Made by a program: the position numbers and the translations under genes. 13,742 nucleotides of DNA from Draconibacterium sp. (GTDB lineage: Bacteria; Bacteroidota; Bacteroidia; Bacteroidales; Prolixibacteraceae), in contig WGCT01000281.1 in NCBI GenBank assembly GCA_015493625.1, forward strand, positions 1-13,742, in the 5' to 3' direction. The first letter of the stretch is position 1; each line of letters begins with the position of its first letter. Positions 3,796 through 13,742 of this stretch are shown piece after piece. The notes beneath the pieces were generated by a model. It searched no databases. It worked only from the letters and a program-made list of their open reading frames with translations, and was not told the origin of the DNA.

Positions 3796-3931
3796 TAATG
3801 GTTCGGTACACTTTTATAAATATCTCATAAACAGAGAATTGCAAGACATAAGCCAATTGTCATAATTTACTAAAGAACAGACCTTTGCGACTTAGCACCT
3901 TTGGTAGAAACAAAAATTTAACGAAGTATTG
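3796..3931 (+). mobile_element. 136-bp MITE-like element, older copy A
   Basis: This block matches 13594-13729 over exactly 136 bp without gaps (18 mismatches counted by hand, about 87% identity), and similarity stops sharply at both ends. Its ends form an imperfect inverted repeat (TAATGGTTCGGT at the left, CAATACTTCGTT at the right read inward; about 14 of the first 20 positions pair). Its internal 8-bp tandem motif (3883-3906) is decayed compared with copy B, so this copy is probably older. No clean target duplication remains; ATACT (3790-3794) and ATGCT (3932-3936) could be a worn 5-bp one with one extra base. It codes for nothing evident and lies 16 bp past the OmpA terminator. Confidence 0.72.
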
Positions 3932-3964
3932 ATGCTCAAAACAAATAGCTTATTCGTAACAATG
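3932..3964 (+). repeat. About 33-nt dispersed repeat, copy 1
   Basis: The sequence ATGCTCAAAACAAATAGCTT continuing to 3964 matches 7022-7053 in the same orientation, with 4 substitutions and a 1-base gap. It begins exactly where the 136-bp element ends. The two copies lie at either edge of the segment that holds the two broken minus-strand genes. Function unknown. Confidence 0.55.
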
Positions 3965-4002: not shown

Positions 4003-5643
4003 CTACTTTTCGAAATTGGGTGCCACATTTTGTTTCTCGGAATTTACAATGCGCTGAAGTTTTATTTTCAAAACGGCTCCTTCGGGAGGCAAGACACTAT
4101 GGTAGAGTGCATCGCCATTCCAAAGCCGTTGCGTGTGCCATGTCCCGTTTTTGTAAAAGCCCTCTTCGGCCAAAACAAATTCGGCTTTGTTAAAACCCGA
4201 TTTGTATTTTGGACGAAAAATAAATTTGGCATCGAAACCGGCAATCATAAATTCGTCTTCCGATAATTGTCCGATAAGTACCCGCCCTGTAATTTCACCC
4301 TTTTTGTCGCGGTTGGGGAACCCGAATTGCACCAGTACATCGTAGTTGTCGAAGTGTAACAGTTTCTCGCCAAGTCCGTGTTCTTCGACTGCGGCTTTCA
4401 AATTTCCCGTTCCCTGCAGCTCAACAATTTTATCCGATATTTTACTAAAAAGTTTATAGTTTTCGGCCATTGGCAAGAATTTCGTATCCAGCGATTGTTT
4501 GTTTCTATTTTCGCGTGGGTCGATATAAAAGGGGTCTATCCCGTAAGGAGCAATTCCCATGGCATCGAAATCGGCCAGTGCATAAAACTGGTAGCGGGCG
4601 AAATTCATCCCGTTGCCCATTTCGGGTAAAAACAGCGGATTATCGGGCCGTTTATATTTTTTGCACAATTCAATGAAATCCATATTGTTCTGATGGTAAA
4701 TATCGAGAGCGAGCGTGAACATTTCGGGAGCAGCAATTTTCCAAATATCAATCATATTCGATGTTGGCCCGCCACTGGGGTACTCGCCCGGGCGCTGGAA
4801 ATAGTTCTCTTTTGTCCATACATTTATATACATGGGCAGTGGATAAACTGCTTTTCCTGCTGCCGCCACCCCGTTGATGTATTTCGCAATCCAGTAAGCA
4901 TTAAATGCCTCGGCTGCTTCAATCCCAAAAACTTCATCCCATGTACCTCCCTTTTTCCCTAACCCTAAAATCAGTTCATCGGGCACCTCTCCGAAATACA
5001 ATTTATTAGCGGCTTCACTGTAATCGCGGTCGGTTTGCAAGCTTCCCGGCTCGTTTTCGGGTTGAACCATAATTACGGTTCGCTCGCTGCTATCAATGGT
5101 GCGAATGTGTTGCATCTATTGCACAAAAGCTTTTTTGTCGGCAGTAATATTATTTTCGGAAATGGCCGACAAAACGTAAACCGGTTCGCCCGAACTATTT
5201 TTCATTCGTGGATATTTTTCGGGATTTTCGCGTACCCAAACAGGTGTATATTCCAAACTGCCGTTTTTAAAAGAGCCAAACCAGAGAACAACCAATTTCA
5301 GGTTGTTGCGGCGCGCTCCATAAATTAAACTATCGATGTTGTTAAAATTAAAAATTCCCTCCTGAGGTTCTATATCCTGCCAGTAAACCGGAGCTTCCAG
5401 CGTATTGCAATTTAACTCTTCTAATTGTGGCCAGATTTTAGGCAAGTATTCAGCCCACGCGCTGGAGTTCCAGAGTTGTGCCCCGAGCAATAAAAATGGT
5501 TTCCCATCGACATAAATTGTAAACTTCCCGTTCTCGTTGCGGATTTCGGCAATTGGCTTTTCCTTTTCCTGCAAATAGGGAGCAGAGGTTGCCTGATAAT
5601 TTCCTGCAATTAGGAAGAAAATAAGAATAATTATTTGCTTCAT
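4003..5643 (-). pseudogene. Broken secreted DUF5597/GH35-like beta-galactosidase-type glycosidase (in-frame TAG)
   Basis: Full-length glycosidase gene (546 codons) interrupted by one in-frame TAG at codon 176 (5116-5118); both halves are otherwise intact and in the same frame. The start is the ATG at 5641-5643, giving a signal peptide (MKQIIILIFFLIAGNYQATS). The N-terminal half reads as a (beta/alpha)8 glycosidase (YVDGKPFLLLGAQLWNSSAW, EAPVYWQDIEPQEG). After the stop come the likely acid/base Glu198 in VQPENEPGS and the likely nucleophile Glu341 in LFLPEMGNG, then a C-terminal beta domain of DUF5597 type. Family members cleave galactosides or related plant or algal glycans in the periplasm or at the surface; the substrate is not readable here. 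The stop comes before both catalytic residues, so an unsuppressed product would be inactive. It lies downstream of the broken hydrolase gene on the same strand, 188 bp apart. A sequencing error or TAG suppression is less likely but not excluded. Confidence 0.85.
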
Positions 5644-5831
5644 AAGTTTCGTTCGTTTGTTGAAATTATACACTTTTTTTGCAAGGTTTTCAGTTCCTAT
5701 AATTAGTTTCAAACTAAAATCTGAAATCGTAAGTTTGAAATAAAGCAATTTCGGTTAACCGGTTTCTGTTTTCAATCTCATCTATATCCAAGCGAATTTT
5801 ATTCGTTTAATGTTGAAAGTAAAATACAGTT

Positions 5832-6978
5832 TTAACGGTATTCAATATCAACTTTAGGTTTTCCGGCAACTTCACGTTCGGCAAAAAAAGTGTATGGTTC
5901 TGTCCATTGGTAGTCATTTCCTTCTCTACGTTGCTGCAACGAATACGAGAGGATTTCAATCCCTTTATCGATATCCCGTGTAGCATTTTCCATACTTATT
6001 GCCGTGTGGCCGGGCAGCAATAAATCGAAAAGAATGGGTTCCCTCACCATAATCCTGTCTTTTTCGTTATGTACCGTTCCTGCAATTGCATAGCGTTTTA
6101 GTTTCCAGAGCGAGTTTAAATATTGATTGAAATCGGCATAAGGGTGTCCCATCCAACCATGTTTTCCGTTGTGGAAAATGGTATCTCCCGAAATCAAAAT
6201 ATTTTTTCCCTCGCTTTGGAACGCAAAACAACATGAATCGGGGGTGTGCCCCGGTGTGTGTACCACGTATATTTTGAGGTCTCCAAAATCCAATTCGTCA
6301 CCATCGTGAAAAACAGAAATTGTGCCTTTAACTTTGGGGAAGGTTCGCTCGGGGCCATCAATTAAATACCAGGCAGTTATTTCGTTCCCTGTTTTTATTG
6401 GGTTTGCACCCAGTTGATGAATATGGATTTCGGCACCCGATTTTTGCCAGTAGTTTGCACTGTGCGAATGATCGACATGGCAGTGGGTGAACAGAATGTG
6501 TTTTACATCGTGCTAGTTGTACCCCAGTATTTCAATTTGTTTTACAATTGTTTCGGTATTGCTTTCCAATCCAGGGTCAACAAGAATTAACCCGGTTCCG
6601 GTTTCCAATAAAAAGGAATTTTGCTGCCCGTCTAAAACCAGTTGCCAAACTCCTGTTGCAAGTCTTGCTGGCCCGGTCGAGAATTTAATTTCGTTGTTAT
6701 CGAATTTCTTGTCTAACGCTGTTTGAAGTTTACCAATTTATCCCTTTCTTTATCCACTCAGCTTTTTTCATGTCGCCGTAGGTGTAGCGGTCGTAAACAA
6801 CTTTTTGCCCCCAGGGTGTTTTATAAAATATTGGTTCAACCCCCCTATTCCCGTTCACTTTAATGAATGGTTTATGTGTGACAGCCAAAGAGTTCGATGA
6901 AGCCGAAAGAACTCCGGGGATACTAATCCCTGCTCCCATTAACATTACCAACCTACCAAAAAATGTTGATCTGTTCAT
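5832..6978 (-). pseudogene. Broken exported metallo-beta-lactamase-fold hydrolase (frameshift plus in-frame TAG)
   Basis: About 381 codons of a zinc-dependent MBL-fold hydrolase with two lesions. The ATG at 6976-6978 begins a signal-like N-terminus (MNRSTFFGRLVMLMGAGISI). The frame ends at TAA 6730-6732; dropping one base there (6732) continues as GINWKLQTALDKKFDN. A second stop, TAG at 6513-6515, lies in LGYN*HDVKHILFTH, nine codons before the metal motif HCHVDH (6468-6485). Further metal-ligand motifs HTPGH, SGDTIF and LPGHTA follow, so the fold is complete to the TAA at 5832. The family spans beta-lactamases, glyoxalase II, lactonases and others, and the substrate cannot be told from this. 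It lies between pepD and the broken glycosidase on the same strand. The frameshift is not in a homopolymer, which makes a simple sequencing slip less likely. Confidence 0.85.
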
Positions 6979-7021
6979 GCTATTGTATATTATTTCGGTT
7001 CAAGATAAATAAAATTCCTGT

Positions 7022-7053
7022 ATACTCAAACCAAATAGCTTTTCGTCACGATG
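7022..7053 (+). repeat. About 33-nt dispersed repeat, copy 2
   Basis: ATACTCAAACCAAATAGCTT followed by TTCGTCACGATG matches 3932-3964 in direct orientation. It lies in the 141-bp gap between the pepD stop and the start of the broken MBL gene. With copy 1 it brackets about 3.06 kb containing both broken genes, which could mark the edges of an acquired or rearranged segment, or could simply be a common intergenic repeat of this genome. Confidence 0.55.
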
Positions 7054-11301: not shown

Positions 11302-13588
11302 TTAAAACTGCTCTTTACCAAAAGTGCTCTCCGCTTTTTTATGCGATTTCCCTTTCATATTGAACGAGTATTTTGCACTAACTTCCAAAATTGGGCCGTA
11401 CCGTGTGTACTCCACCTCCTGATAAAATATTTGTGTTCCCGACGGGTTGTAAGCACGCGTATTCAATCCGGTTACGTTCGAGCCTAAAAGATCTAAAACT
11501 TTTACGCCCAAGTTCCAGCCATTCAGTACATCTGGCGAATAATTCAACGCTGCATTCGACATATAAAACATTTCGTTTCGGCCCTGTGTGGTAACAGTTG
11601 CCGAACGTAAATCGAAATCGAGAGTAAATTTCAAATCTTTCCGAAGCATTAAATTCATGTTGCTTTTTAAACTCCAGTTTGTACTGCTGTTATCCTCTTT
11701 ATATCCGAATACATCGCCCTGCGTATTGAAATTATAAAGCGATCCACCAACAAAAAATTTCGCAAATTTTCCGGCTGTTAAATTAGCGTTCAACTCGGCT
11801 CCCAATGCTTTTACATTTCCCGAATTTGTATAACTTCTAATCAGCACATTCTCCTTTTTGTAAACGGTATTTACACGAAAAATTGCATTGTCGGTTCCAC
11901 GATAAAAACCGGTTAAAGCAAAACTCTGTTTTCCAAGTTTTTTATCGAATGTCAATTCGAAATTTGTAAGGTATTCGGGTTTTAACTCCGGGTCGCCTAC
12001 CACATAAACTTCGTAATGGCGACGATACAGAAACGGCGCCATATTTTTTGTTCGTGGCCGGTTAATGCGGCGGCTGGCAGCAAAAATAACAGAACTGGTT
12101 TCGTTAAAATTGTAACTTAAATGAAGCGATGGAAACCAGTCGAGCTGCCGAACTTTGTATTCGGGCAAAATAGGTTTATCGAAAAAATTAAGCGAGTCGG
12201 GGTTATCTATTTTCAGGAGTTGGTCGGTGTACTCAACGCGCAGCCCGGCAATTAAACTAAAATTGCCAAAGGTTGCCGAGTAGTCGAAATATCCAGCATA
12301 AATTGCCCTCGAAAAATCGAAACTATTGCTGAGTGTTTTATTCGTTCCCAACTGCCACTACTTACATTTAACGTATCGTACTGATAACCACCTGCCTGGC
12401 TTACAAACTGCGGCTGAAATCCAATTCCCAGCTTTCCGTTTTCAAGCTCCTTTTCAAAATCGATTGCTGTACGCACTCCGTCGAGTGGAGTATTATCGGT
12501 TTGATGATAGTGTGCTAACTTTTCGCCTACTTCGTCGGCAGATTTATCGAAAGCATAATTCTGATTACTCAATTCACGGCTCAACTCCGAGTGTTCGTAC
12601 AACAACGAAAATGTAACTTTCGATTTATTATCGAATTGTTGTGTTAAATCGATATTCCCTGTATGAAAAATACCATAACGGTTGTCGGTATTCGGATTAT
12701 AAATCCAATGGTTTTGCGGGTCGATTCCCGGAATTGGATTTTTATCCACATCGCCATAAAAATTATTATATACATAAAATGCCGAGCGTCCTTCGGTTCG
12801 GTGGCCATAAAAGTACGATGCCGTAATATTGCTCTTCTCGCTTATATTATAATCGACACCAATATTTGCCGAATAGTTTTCGTACCACTCGGGGCGTTCG
12901 CCACTGGCAACCATGTGGTAATACGACCCGTCGGATTGCAACAACCGAGCATCGCCAATGCGCGCACCATTTACGTTTCGTTTATTGTAATTTAGTCCAC
13001 CGTATAAACTCAAATTATTCTTATTATACACCAAATTGAGCCCGCCGCCACCGCGCCGGTCGGTAAGATTAAAACCACTGTATTTGTCGGTAACATGTCC
13101 CCAAGGGGCATCGCCAAACACACCGTTTGCCGAAACCGAAAGTCCTTCAAGTCCCTTCTTTTTTGTTGTAATATTTATAATTCCGCCTTTCCCCTGCGCA
13201 TCGTACCGTGCAGTTGGAACAGTAATAATTTCAATATTTTCGATTGCATCGGCCGATATTTGCCCCAACAAAACTGAAGCTTCCATTTGTGTAGGTTTTC
13301 CATTCAGATAAACCATAAAATCGGTGGTTCCGCGCAGCGAAACAGTACCATCGGGGCCAACAGAAACCGACGGCAGTTTATTTAATACATCGACAGCTGT
13401 ACCGCCACTTGCCGTTTCAAAATCGCTGGCATGGTAGGTCTGTCTGTCAATTTTCTTCGCAGTTGTTCGTGCCATTGCCTTTACATCCACACCTTCAAGC
13501 TCAACTGTTGATGGAGACAAAACTACATCGTCAGTAAAAACAGTTGGATGAGATGCTGAAAGAGTAATTGCATTTAATGTGTCGTTAC

Positions 13589-13593
13589 CATAA
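13589..13593. repeat. Target-site duplication CATAA, left
   Basis: CATAA directly abuts the left end of the 136-bp element and is repeated at 13730-13734 directly after its right end. Removing the element and one copy restores the receptor reading frame, so this is very probably a 5-bp target duplication made on insertion. Confidence 0.8.
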
Positions 13594-13729
13594 TAATGGT
13601 TCGGTATATTTTTATAAGTATCTCATAAACAGAGAATTACAAGGCATAAGGTGATTGTCGTAATTTGCTAAAAATCAGACCTTTGCGACTTTGCGGCTTT
13701 GCGAGAAACAAAAATCTAACGAAGTATTG
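13594..13729 (+). mobile_element. 136-bp MITE-like element, younger copy B, inserted in the TonB receptor gene
   Basis: Same block as 3796-3931. The ends TAATGGTTCGGTATATTTTT and CAATACTTCGTTAGATTTTT (right end read inward) pair at 15 of 20 positions, an imperfect terminal inverted repeat. It is flanked by perfect 5-bp CATAA copies. Inside, near the right end, is an intact 8-bp tandem motif repeated three times (CTTTGCGA, CTTTGCGG, CTTTGCGA; 13681-13704), which is decayed in copy A. There is no coding capacity, so a transposase elsewhere in the genome would have to move it. Size, inverted ends, duplication and multiple copies fit a miniature inverted-repeat transposable element; the transposase family is not identified. 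Confidence 0.82.
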
Positions 13730-13734
13730 CATAA
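13730..13734. repeat. Target-site duplication CATAA, right
   Basis: Right-hand partner of 13589-13593. On the minus strand the receptor reads TTT ATC GG, then TTATG, then jumps to GTAACGACACA, encoding FIGYGNDT without interruption. Confidence 0.8.
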
Positions 13735-13742
13735 CCGATAAA

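Follow-up and report, generated by a model that had tools for sequence, protein, structure and literature searches.

Two MITEs of Bacteroidota bear the closest described likeness to the element considered here. MITECca01 of Cardinium cOegibbosus (PMC9769881), as far as the accessible parts of its description go, is short, present in many copies and furnished with ends resembling those of a resident IS, its interior being unlike the IS except for these ends and a few bases. BrickBuilt of Porphyromonas gingivalis, a MITE of Bacteroidales (PMC4596501, in excerpt), contains in its interior a tandem repeat that varies in copy number. The 136-bp element analysed below shares these traits but differs from MITECca01, for which the same parts of the source give an IS982-family parent (ISCca4) and a length of ~240 bp and mention no 8-bp array, as well as from BrickBuilt, for which the excerpt reports a 23-nt repeat, IS5-type ends such as GAGACCTTTGCA, target duplications inconsistent between copies and an always intergenic location. 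On the side of transposases, the relevant scheme is that of De Palmenaer et al. (2008; PMC2266710), where, in the portions available to us, the YREK motif defines IS4 and target duplications are 7–13 bp long for IS4, exactly 4 bp for IS701 and 5–6 bp, AT-rich, for IS1634. IS701 elements are described there as 1.40–1.55 kb long, mostly without the YREK tyrosine and with the end consensus ---YACT-Y--YR, and IS1634 elements as 1.5–2.0 kb long, with long transposases and ends C-----YT. No description of the present family was apparent among the listed papers on Bacteroidetes and Bacteroidales MITEs, IS701 and Draconibacterium, ISfinder lying outside this search, and the array and end sequences, searched for in the literature as letters, gave no match; the proposal of the sequence-only reading that the element belongs to an undescribed family in this lineage thus stands with respect to the literature searched, but the family turned out not to be confined to one lineage. 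The element is well supported as a new family of MITEs, mobile DNA of an already familiar type, for which a parent IS group can plausibly be named.

The window, by which the whole analysed stretch of 13,742 nucleotides is meant, contains two copies of the element, A and B, and its ORF list includes no ORF of 60 aa or longer inside either of them. Copy B occupies positions 13594..13729 (plus strand, 136 bp) within a TonB-receptor gene and begins and terminates with TAATGGTTCGG...GAAGTATTG; CATAA stands on both sides, at 13589..13593 and 13730..13734, as a target-site duplication to which no strand is assigned. The element is non-coding: its ends are imperfect inverted repeats of each other, its middle is AT-rich, and a short array of an 8-bp unit adjoins the right end. 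The left terminal inverted repeat, TAATGGTTCGGTATATTTTT (13594..13613, plus), is complementary to the right one, CAATACTTCGTTAGATTTTT on the minus strand (13710..13729), bases 1–20 matching the reverse complement of the final 20 at 15 of 20 positions, and the array consists of three units, CTTTGCGA CTTTGCGG CTTTGCGA (13681..13704, plus). Copy A (3796..3931, plus) is intergenic and aligns with copy B over all 136 bp without gaps, at 86.8% identity and with the same ends. The perfect CATAA duplication, the coincidence of its inner borders with the ends set by similarity to copy A and the inverted repeat had all been claimed from the letters alone, and all are confirmed. Copy A has no exact target duplication; it is an older copy adjoining a remnant of a second repeat family. 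This second MITE-like family is represented in the window by an intact end (7018-7045) and a degenerate one, recognised by eye (~3932-3955). Nine of its 11 copies read (loci L305-L315) are 155–170 bp long and two are 60 and 81 bp, with ends TACTCAAACCAAATAGCTTTTCG and with TA on both sides in 10 of the 11. The pattern of its ends has 74 matches in the host genome (G000), 79 and 63 in the congeneric genomes G021 and G001 and at most 10 in each of 34 other genus members, the reversed control giving at most one match per genome. Given the TA flanks, we take it to be possibly of the IS630/mariner type.

In the interrupted TonB-dependent receptor gene, the N-terminal part with the plug domain (PF07715) is split by copy B (12252..13742, minus) and the C-terminal barrel part (PF14905) lies in another frame (11302..12351, minus). 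The ORFs into which the gene is divided, 12252-13520 and 11302-12351, differ in frame; this frame change is a second lesion, independent of copy B. Read without excision, the receptor strand gives F-I-G-Y-A-I-L-R-stop (TAG), with the stop no more than five codons from the junction, in accordance with the early termination noticed by the sequence-only reading. In G021 the receptor ortholog is a single frame of 851 codons, and its site is empty: the DNA there is TTATTGGTTATGGTAACGACAC, with one TTATG (= CATAA) at the predicted position, the protein is FIGYGNDTLNAITLS and the site reads SFIGYGNDTLNAITLS, which is the uninterrupted site that had been predicted. In other members of the genus 13 receptor homologs were found, and all eight that were read are continuous and free of the insert, as had also been anticipated for orthologous receptors. 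The contig terminates 13 bases past copy B, and since 12 of these 13 agree with the uninterrupted G021 gene, an assembly chimera at the junction is unlikely. The receptor gene is one of three apparently broken neighbours in the window (4003-5748, 5832-6978 and 11302-13742, all on the minus strand), of which the first, glycosidase-like (DUF5597), contains an in-frame stop and the second, of the metallo-beta-lactamase fold, is fragmented. Genome size is low in both MITE-bearing genus members (G000, 3.3 Mb at 94% completeness; G021, 3.7 Mb at 99%), most other members of at least 90% completeness having 4.3–7.8 Mb, with exceptions of 2.2, 3.9 and 3.9 Mb; small genomes and broken genes in combination are a hint of genome erosion.

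In the host genome, available as 3.3 Mb in 587 contigs, BLAST gave at least 40 matches to the element (40 scored of 62 candidates), many of them at contig ends, as is usual for repeats, and contig C14 terminates in one further left end. Complete copies, 25 in G000 and 24 in G021 (49 in total), are 117–144 bp long; both ends are constant, nearly invariant in sequence across copies, so that the copies keep the borders of a MITE instead of extending beyond them, and the spread in length arises partly from the presence of two, three or four copies of the 8-bp unit CTTTGCGN beside the right end. When ends were fixed by the consensus and mispaired flanks served as controls, exact duplications of 5–7 bp were found in 13 of 25 complete copies in G000 versus 1 of 600 controls and in 15 of 24 in G021 versus 7 of 552; pooled, duplications of at least 5 bp flank 28 of the 49 complete copies (controls: 8 of 1152). 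They are 5–6 and rarely 7 bp long, with an A+T content of 90% in G000 and 86% in G021, and are missing in exact form of at least 5 bp from 12 of 25 and 9 of 24 copies, respectively. The expectation of 5-bp duplications at other copies therefore held as to short AT-rich duplications but not as to a fixed length of 5 bp. Copy number and duplication statistics together exclude a chance origin of the element. An open frame of at least 80 codons runs into only 3 of 25 complete copies in G000 and 5 of 24 in G021 (one flank being too short for this test in 8 of 49), so gene disruption is the exception, and at 446 codons the frame entering the receptor copy is by far the longest running into any complete copy; a regulatory or other effect on neighbouring genes is conceivable. 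Two loci of G021 on different contigs, L234 and L247, agree in their flanks and in the TCTTAA duplication and are 95% alike over 391 bp, which may reflect segmental duplication or strain variation and, maybe, a single insertion event. The right flanks of L002 (G000) and L229 (G021) are orthologous and begin at the element in both genomes, the left and right flanks of L002 are on different contigs in G021, and a separate perfect duplication borders each of the two copies; this may stem from independent insertions close together or from a rearrangement.

Comparison of the two genomes provides empty sites and some indication of relative age. Apart from the receptor, 21 further flank pairs from G000 were searched in G021 and nine of them aligned. 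Four sites filled in G000 are empty in G021, namely the receptor and L025, L015 and L019, the alignment at the latter three crossing the site without the element, with the exact G000 duplication at L015 only. At L013, G021 lacks both the element and part of a surrounding second repeat; L020, L005 and L007 are matched on one side only, the alignments at L012 and L024 give no clear reading of the site, and at L018 the element is present in both genomes. A sister copy of at least 97% identity exists for 10 of 25 copies in G000, four of them having a sister that is identical if gaps are left uncounted, and for 2 of 24 in G021, very likely the flank-sharing pair L234/L247. The transposase frame considered below is open in G000, being cut by the contig end, and in G021 only a decayed transposase fragment was found. 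Copies thus look recent in G000 and old in G021, and the contrast, drawn from two genomes only, agrees with transposase-dependent spread.

Parts of the element recur in other genomes. A search of 61 genomes, the host included, with at most 14 candidates scored per genome, found full-length copies among these candidates in the congeneric G000 and G021; other matches comprise the array with its border and, in G048, the array with the right end of another element. Of 393 genomes sampled from the order, a sample that contains G000 but not G021, 6 gave matches to the pattern of array plus right end. Being found by a pattern that demands array and right end, the elements recovered in this way sample only carriers of this module. 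In those of G295, G048, G103 and G174, representing four different families, the left end resembles CAATAGTTCGGTA and the right end is TTAMCGAAGTATT or a near variant; 5 of 5, 5 of 6, 1 of 1 and 1 of 2 of them, respectively, are flanked by duplications of 5–7 bp, the examined elements being fetched loci with a left end from 24, 14, 1 and 3 pattern matches; at the single match in G285 (L253) no left end is evident. According to z values from a simple shuffle of base pairs in steps of two, the middles of the G048, G103 and G174 elements have no detectable similarity to those of G000 (z at most 2.0), and the middles of five G295 copies are similar to them (z 2.2–6.0). It is conceivable, and deserves serious though less than even credence, that array and right end form a self-standing dispersed module recombined with different left halves, so that several MITE families would have captured one module. 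The unlike middles in G048, G103 and G174, in elements that as wholes align well with those of G000 (z 8.4–9.9 on the matching strand), would fit this, as would the frequency of arrays of the 8-bp unit alone in relatives; it is opposed by the similarity of the G295 middles, which come from another family, and by the agreement of lengths and left ends. A more far-reaching idea, which we regard as rather doubtful, is an order-wide MITE superfamily built on one conserved right-end module, the array (CTTTGCGN)n followed by WGAAAYAAAAATTTAMCGAAGTATT, with unrelated middles; the array would then be kept for a role in transposition, for instance binding of the transposase or of a host factor. Arrays of CTTTGCGN and its variants without MITE ends recur in relatives in either orientation, e.g., at L107/L064 (G046), L108/L067 (G029), L066 (G056), L054 (G032) and others; frames beside some of them resemble, judged by eye, those of a GxxExxY protein or a sugar aminotransferase. 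At L103, L104 and L105 of G048 a palindrome-like unit similar to TACCGGTCAGGCAGG breaks up the array.

The likely candidate for the driver, judged by its sequence, is a resident IS. When two mismatches at most were allowed to the right end, a search of the host genome was noisy (96 matches versus 39 for the reversed control). The end of this IS stands out from the noise through its fivefold recurrence at an IS boundary, TTAACGAACTATTG being present at five contig ends as one and the same end of a longer element. On contig C134 the IS encodes a DDE transposase in an open frame of 391 codons that runs off the contig (at least 391 aa); one end of the IS is seen, and the remainder of the ORF, the second end and the duplication would lie beyond the contig end at codon 391. 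The product matches Pfam DDE_Tnp_1 and DDE_5 above cutoff. As a sole query with incomplete C-terminus, it has its best NCBIfam match in IS701_3 (NF049999; 106.6 bits versus a cutoff of 170) and no IS1634 model among its NCBIfam matches, and no sequence relative was found in PDB at E 0.001. The IS end CAATAGTTCGTTAAA coincides with the consensus right end of the MITE, CAATACTTCGTTAAA, at 14 of 15 positions (13 of 15 for copy B), nothing significant being found beyond the terminal 15 bp of the sequenced IS end. A search for a full-length transposon with the same 20-bp ends had been proposed; an IS with a transposase and a matching end is present, but only the terminal 15 bp are shared, and on this ground derivation of the MITE by internal deletion of the resident IS was rejected.

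The transposase from G059 has a very large number of homologs (3303 among 8000 scored candidates). Of 270 homologous IS loci the best 80 were taken, and a motif-free search found CAATASTTCGKTAA-like ends in about two thirds of these; since it picks pairs maximising end match plus duplication, the duplication lengths it yields are biased and the count with the motif fixed was used, in which CAATASTTCGKTAA is present at both ends of 61 of these 80. The right end of copy B fits this motif at 13 of 14 positions, and the right end of the family consensus does so at 14 of 14; the left end of the MITE begins with T, not C, and over 14 positions has 3 mismatches to the IS consensus. Of the homologous ISs, 52 have both flanks, and 27 of them are bordered by duplications of 5–7 bp (6 bp in 20, 5 bp in 5 and 7 bp in 2), 25 having no exact duplication of this length, as compared with 34 of 2652 controls with at least 5 bp. 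Their sizes are 1238–1493 bp in 51 of 52 and 981 bp in one, placing the group at ~1.35 kb, and two full ORFs encode 405 and 409 aa. A clean representative is L118/L165 (G059; Bacteroidales bacterium STD2_118), 1373 bp long with perfect 14-bp ends and a 6-bp duplication. A tandem pair of the 8-bp unit was found at none of 76 ends of 38 ISs.

The group fits none of IS4, IS701 and IS1634 cleanly as these are delimited in the consulted portions of the 2008 scheme, and is filed here as IS701/IS4-like, unplaced. The YREK motif, Y-(2)-R-(3)-E-(6)-K, is complete (Y300, R303, E307, K314) and invariant in a three-row alignment; among 24 rows R, E and K are invariant and Y is conserved in at least 90%. 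A DDE transposase with full YREK brings the group close to IS4, but its duplications are mostly 6 bp, reaching 7 bp in 2 of 52. Its size of ~1.35 kb is close to that of IS701. The IS701 end consensus fits CAATACTTCGTTA; among 122 motif-selected ends 36 have C and 86 have G at position 6, the other positions fitting. The group departs from IS701 by 5–7 bp duplications, with exactly 4 bp in 0 of 52 copies, by the full YREK, and by a score below the family-model cutoff, obtained with the C-terminally incomplete query. IS1634 is approached by duplications of 5 or 6 bp in 25 of 52 copies and by ends fitting C-----YT but not by length (1.24–1.49 kb, one copy 0.98 kb) or by the transposase of ~405 aa. 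Full IS4 signature and 5–6 bp duplications make a combination unforeseen by the published IS4/IS701/IS1634 scheme, in its accessible parts.

Taken together, these data make it highly probable that the 136-bp element is a MITE, most likely moved in trans by this IS701/IS4-like DDE transposase group. The transposase of the group (CAATASTTCGKTAA ends, ~1.35 kb) would bind the MITE ends in trans; the bound MITE would be freed, presumably by cut-and-paste chemistry, and joined to a staggered cut in an AT-rich target, which would generate the 5–6 bp duplication. Copy B would have landed in the receptor gene probably after the split of the host lineage from G021, its insertion bringing in the stop that lies at most five codons from the junction. 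That some other, unseen transposase drives the MITE, and that the resemblance to IS701/IS4-like ends is convergent or ancestral only, appears improbable. The resident IS end does share just the 15 terminal bp with the MITE, and four genomes with matching elements (G295, G174, G103 and G285) gave no match to a transposase of the group in a search in which the positive controls G048 and G059 matched; yet the 14/15 end match is to an IS of the same genome, duplication lengths of IS and MITE agree, and G048, from another family, pairs the IS group with its own MITEs bearing the same ends. These four are among seven genomes with matches and are each assembled in at least 70 contigs, assembly loss or IS extinction being possible causes of the missing transposase; a simple link between presence or absence of MITE and transposase across genomes was discarded as not clean. 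That the element is a functional intergenic repeat, a small RNA or a regulatory element, its receptor copy being an accident, is scarcely tenable, for although most copies lie outside long open frames, the window has no Rfam match at gathering thresholds, shuffled sequences fold no worse (z -0.74 and 0.28), changes on both sides occur at 1 of 34 pairs in a consensus fold of 18 copies, and target duplications and empty sites mean insertion, the latter largely refuting it. An RNA gene or structured repeat was rejected likewise, with no Rfam match, shuffle-level folds and no covariation.

The preferred reading, a MITE mobilised in trans by the resident IS group, provides environmental Bacteroidota with a well-documented MITE and a candidate parent, characterised by exact ends, controlled duplications, empty sites and a candidate transposase. 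The element accounts for a number of contig breaks in a draft genome and for one clean disruption of a receptor gene. The array, being common to MITEs from several bacterial families, makes a testable question of a repeat for which there was otherwise no explanation, and if the order-wide superfamily were true, the CTTTGCG arrays widespread in these genomes might be what such elements have left behind.
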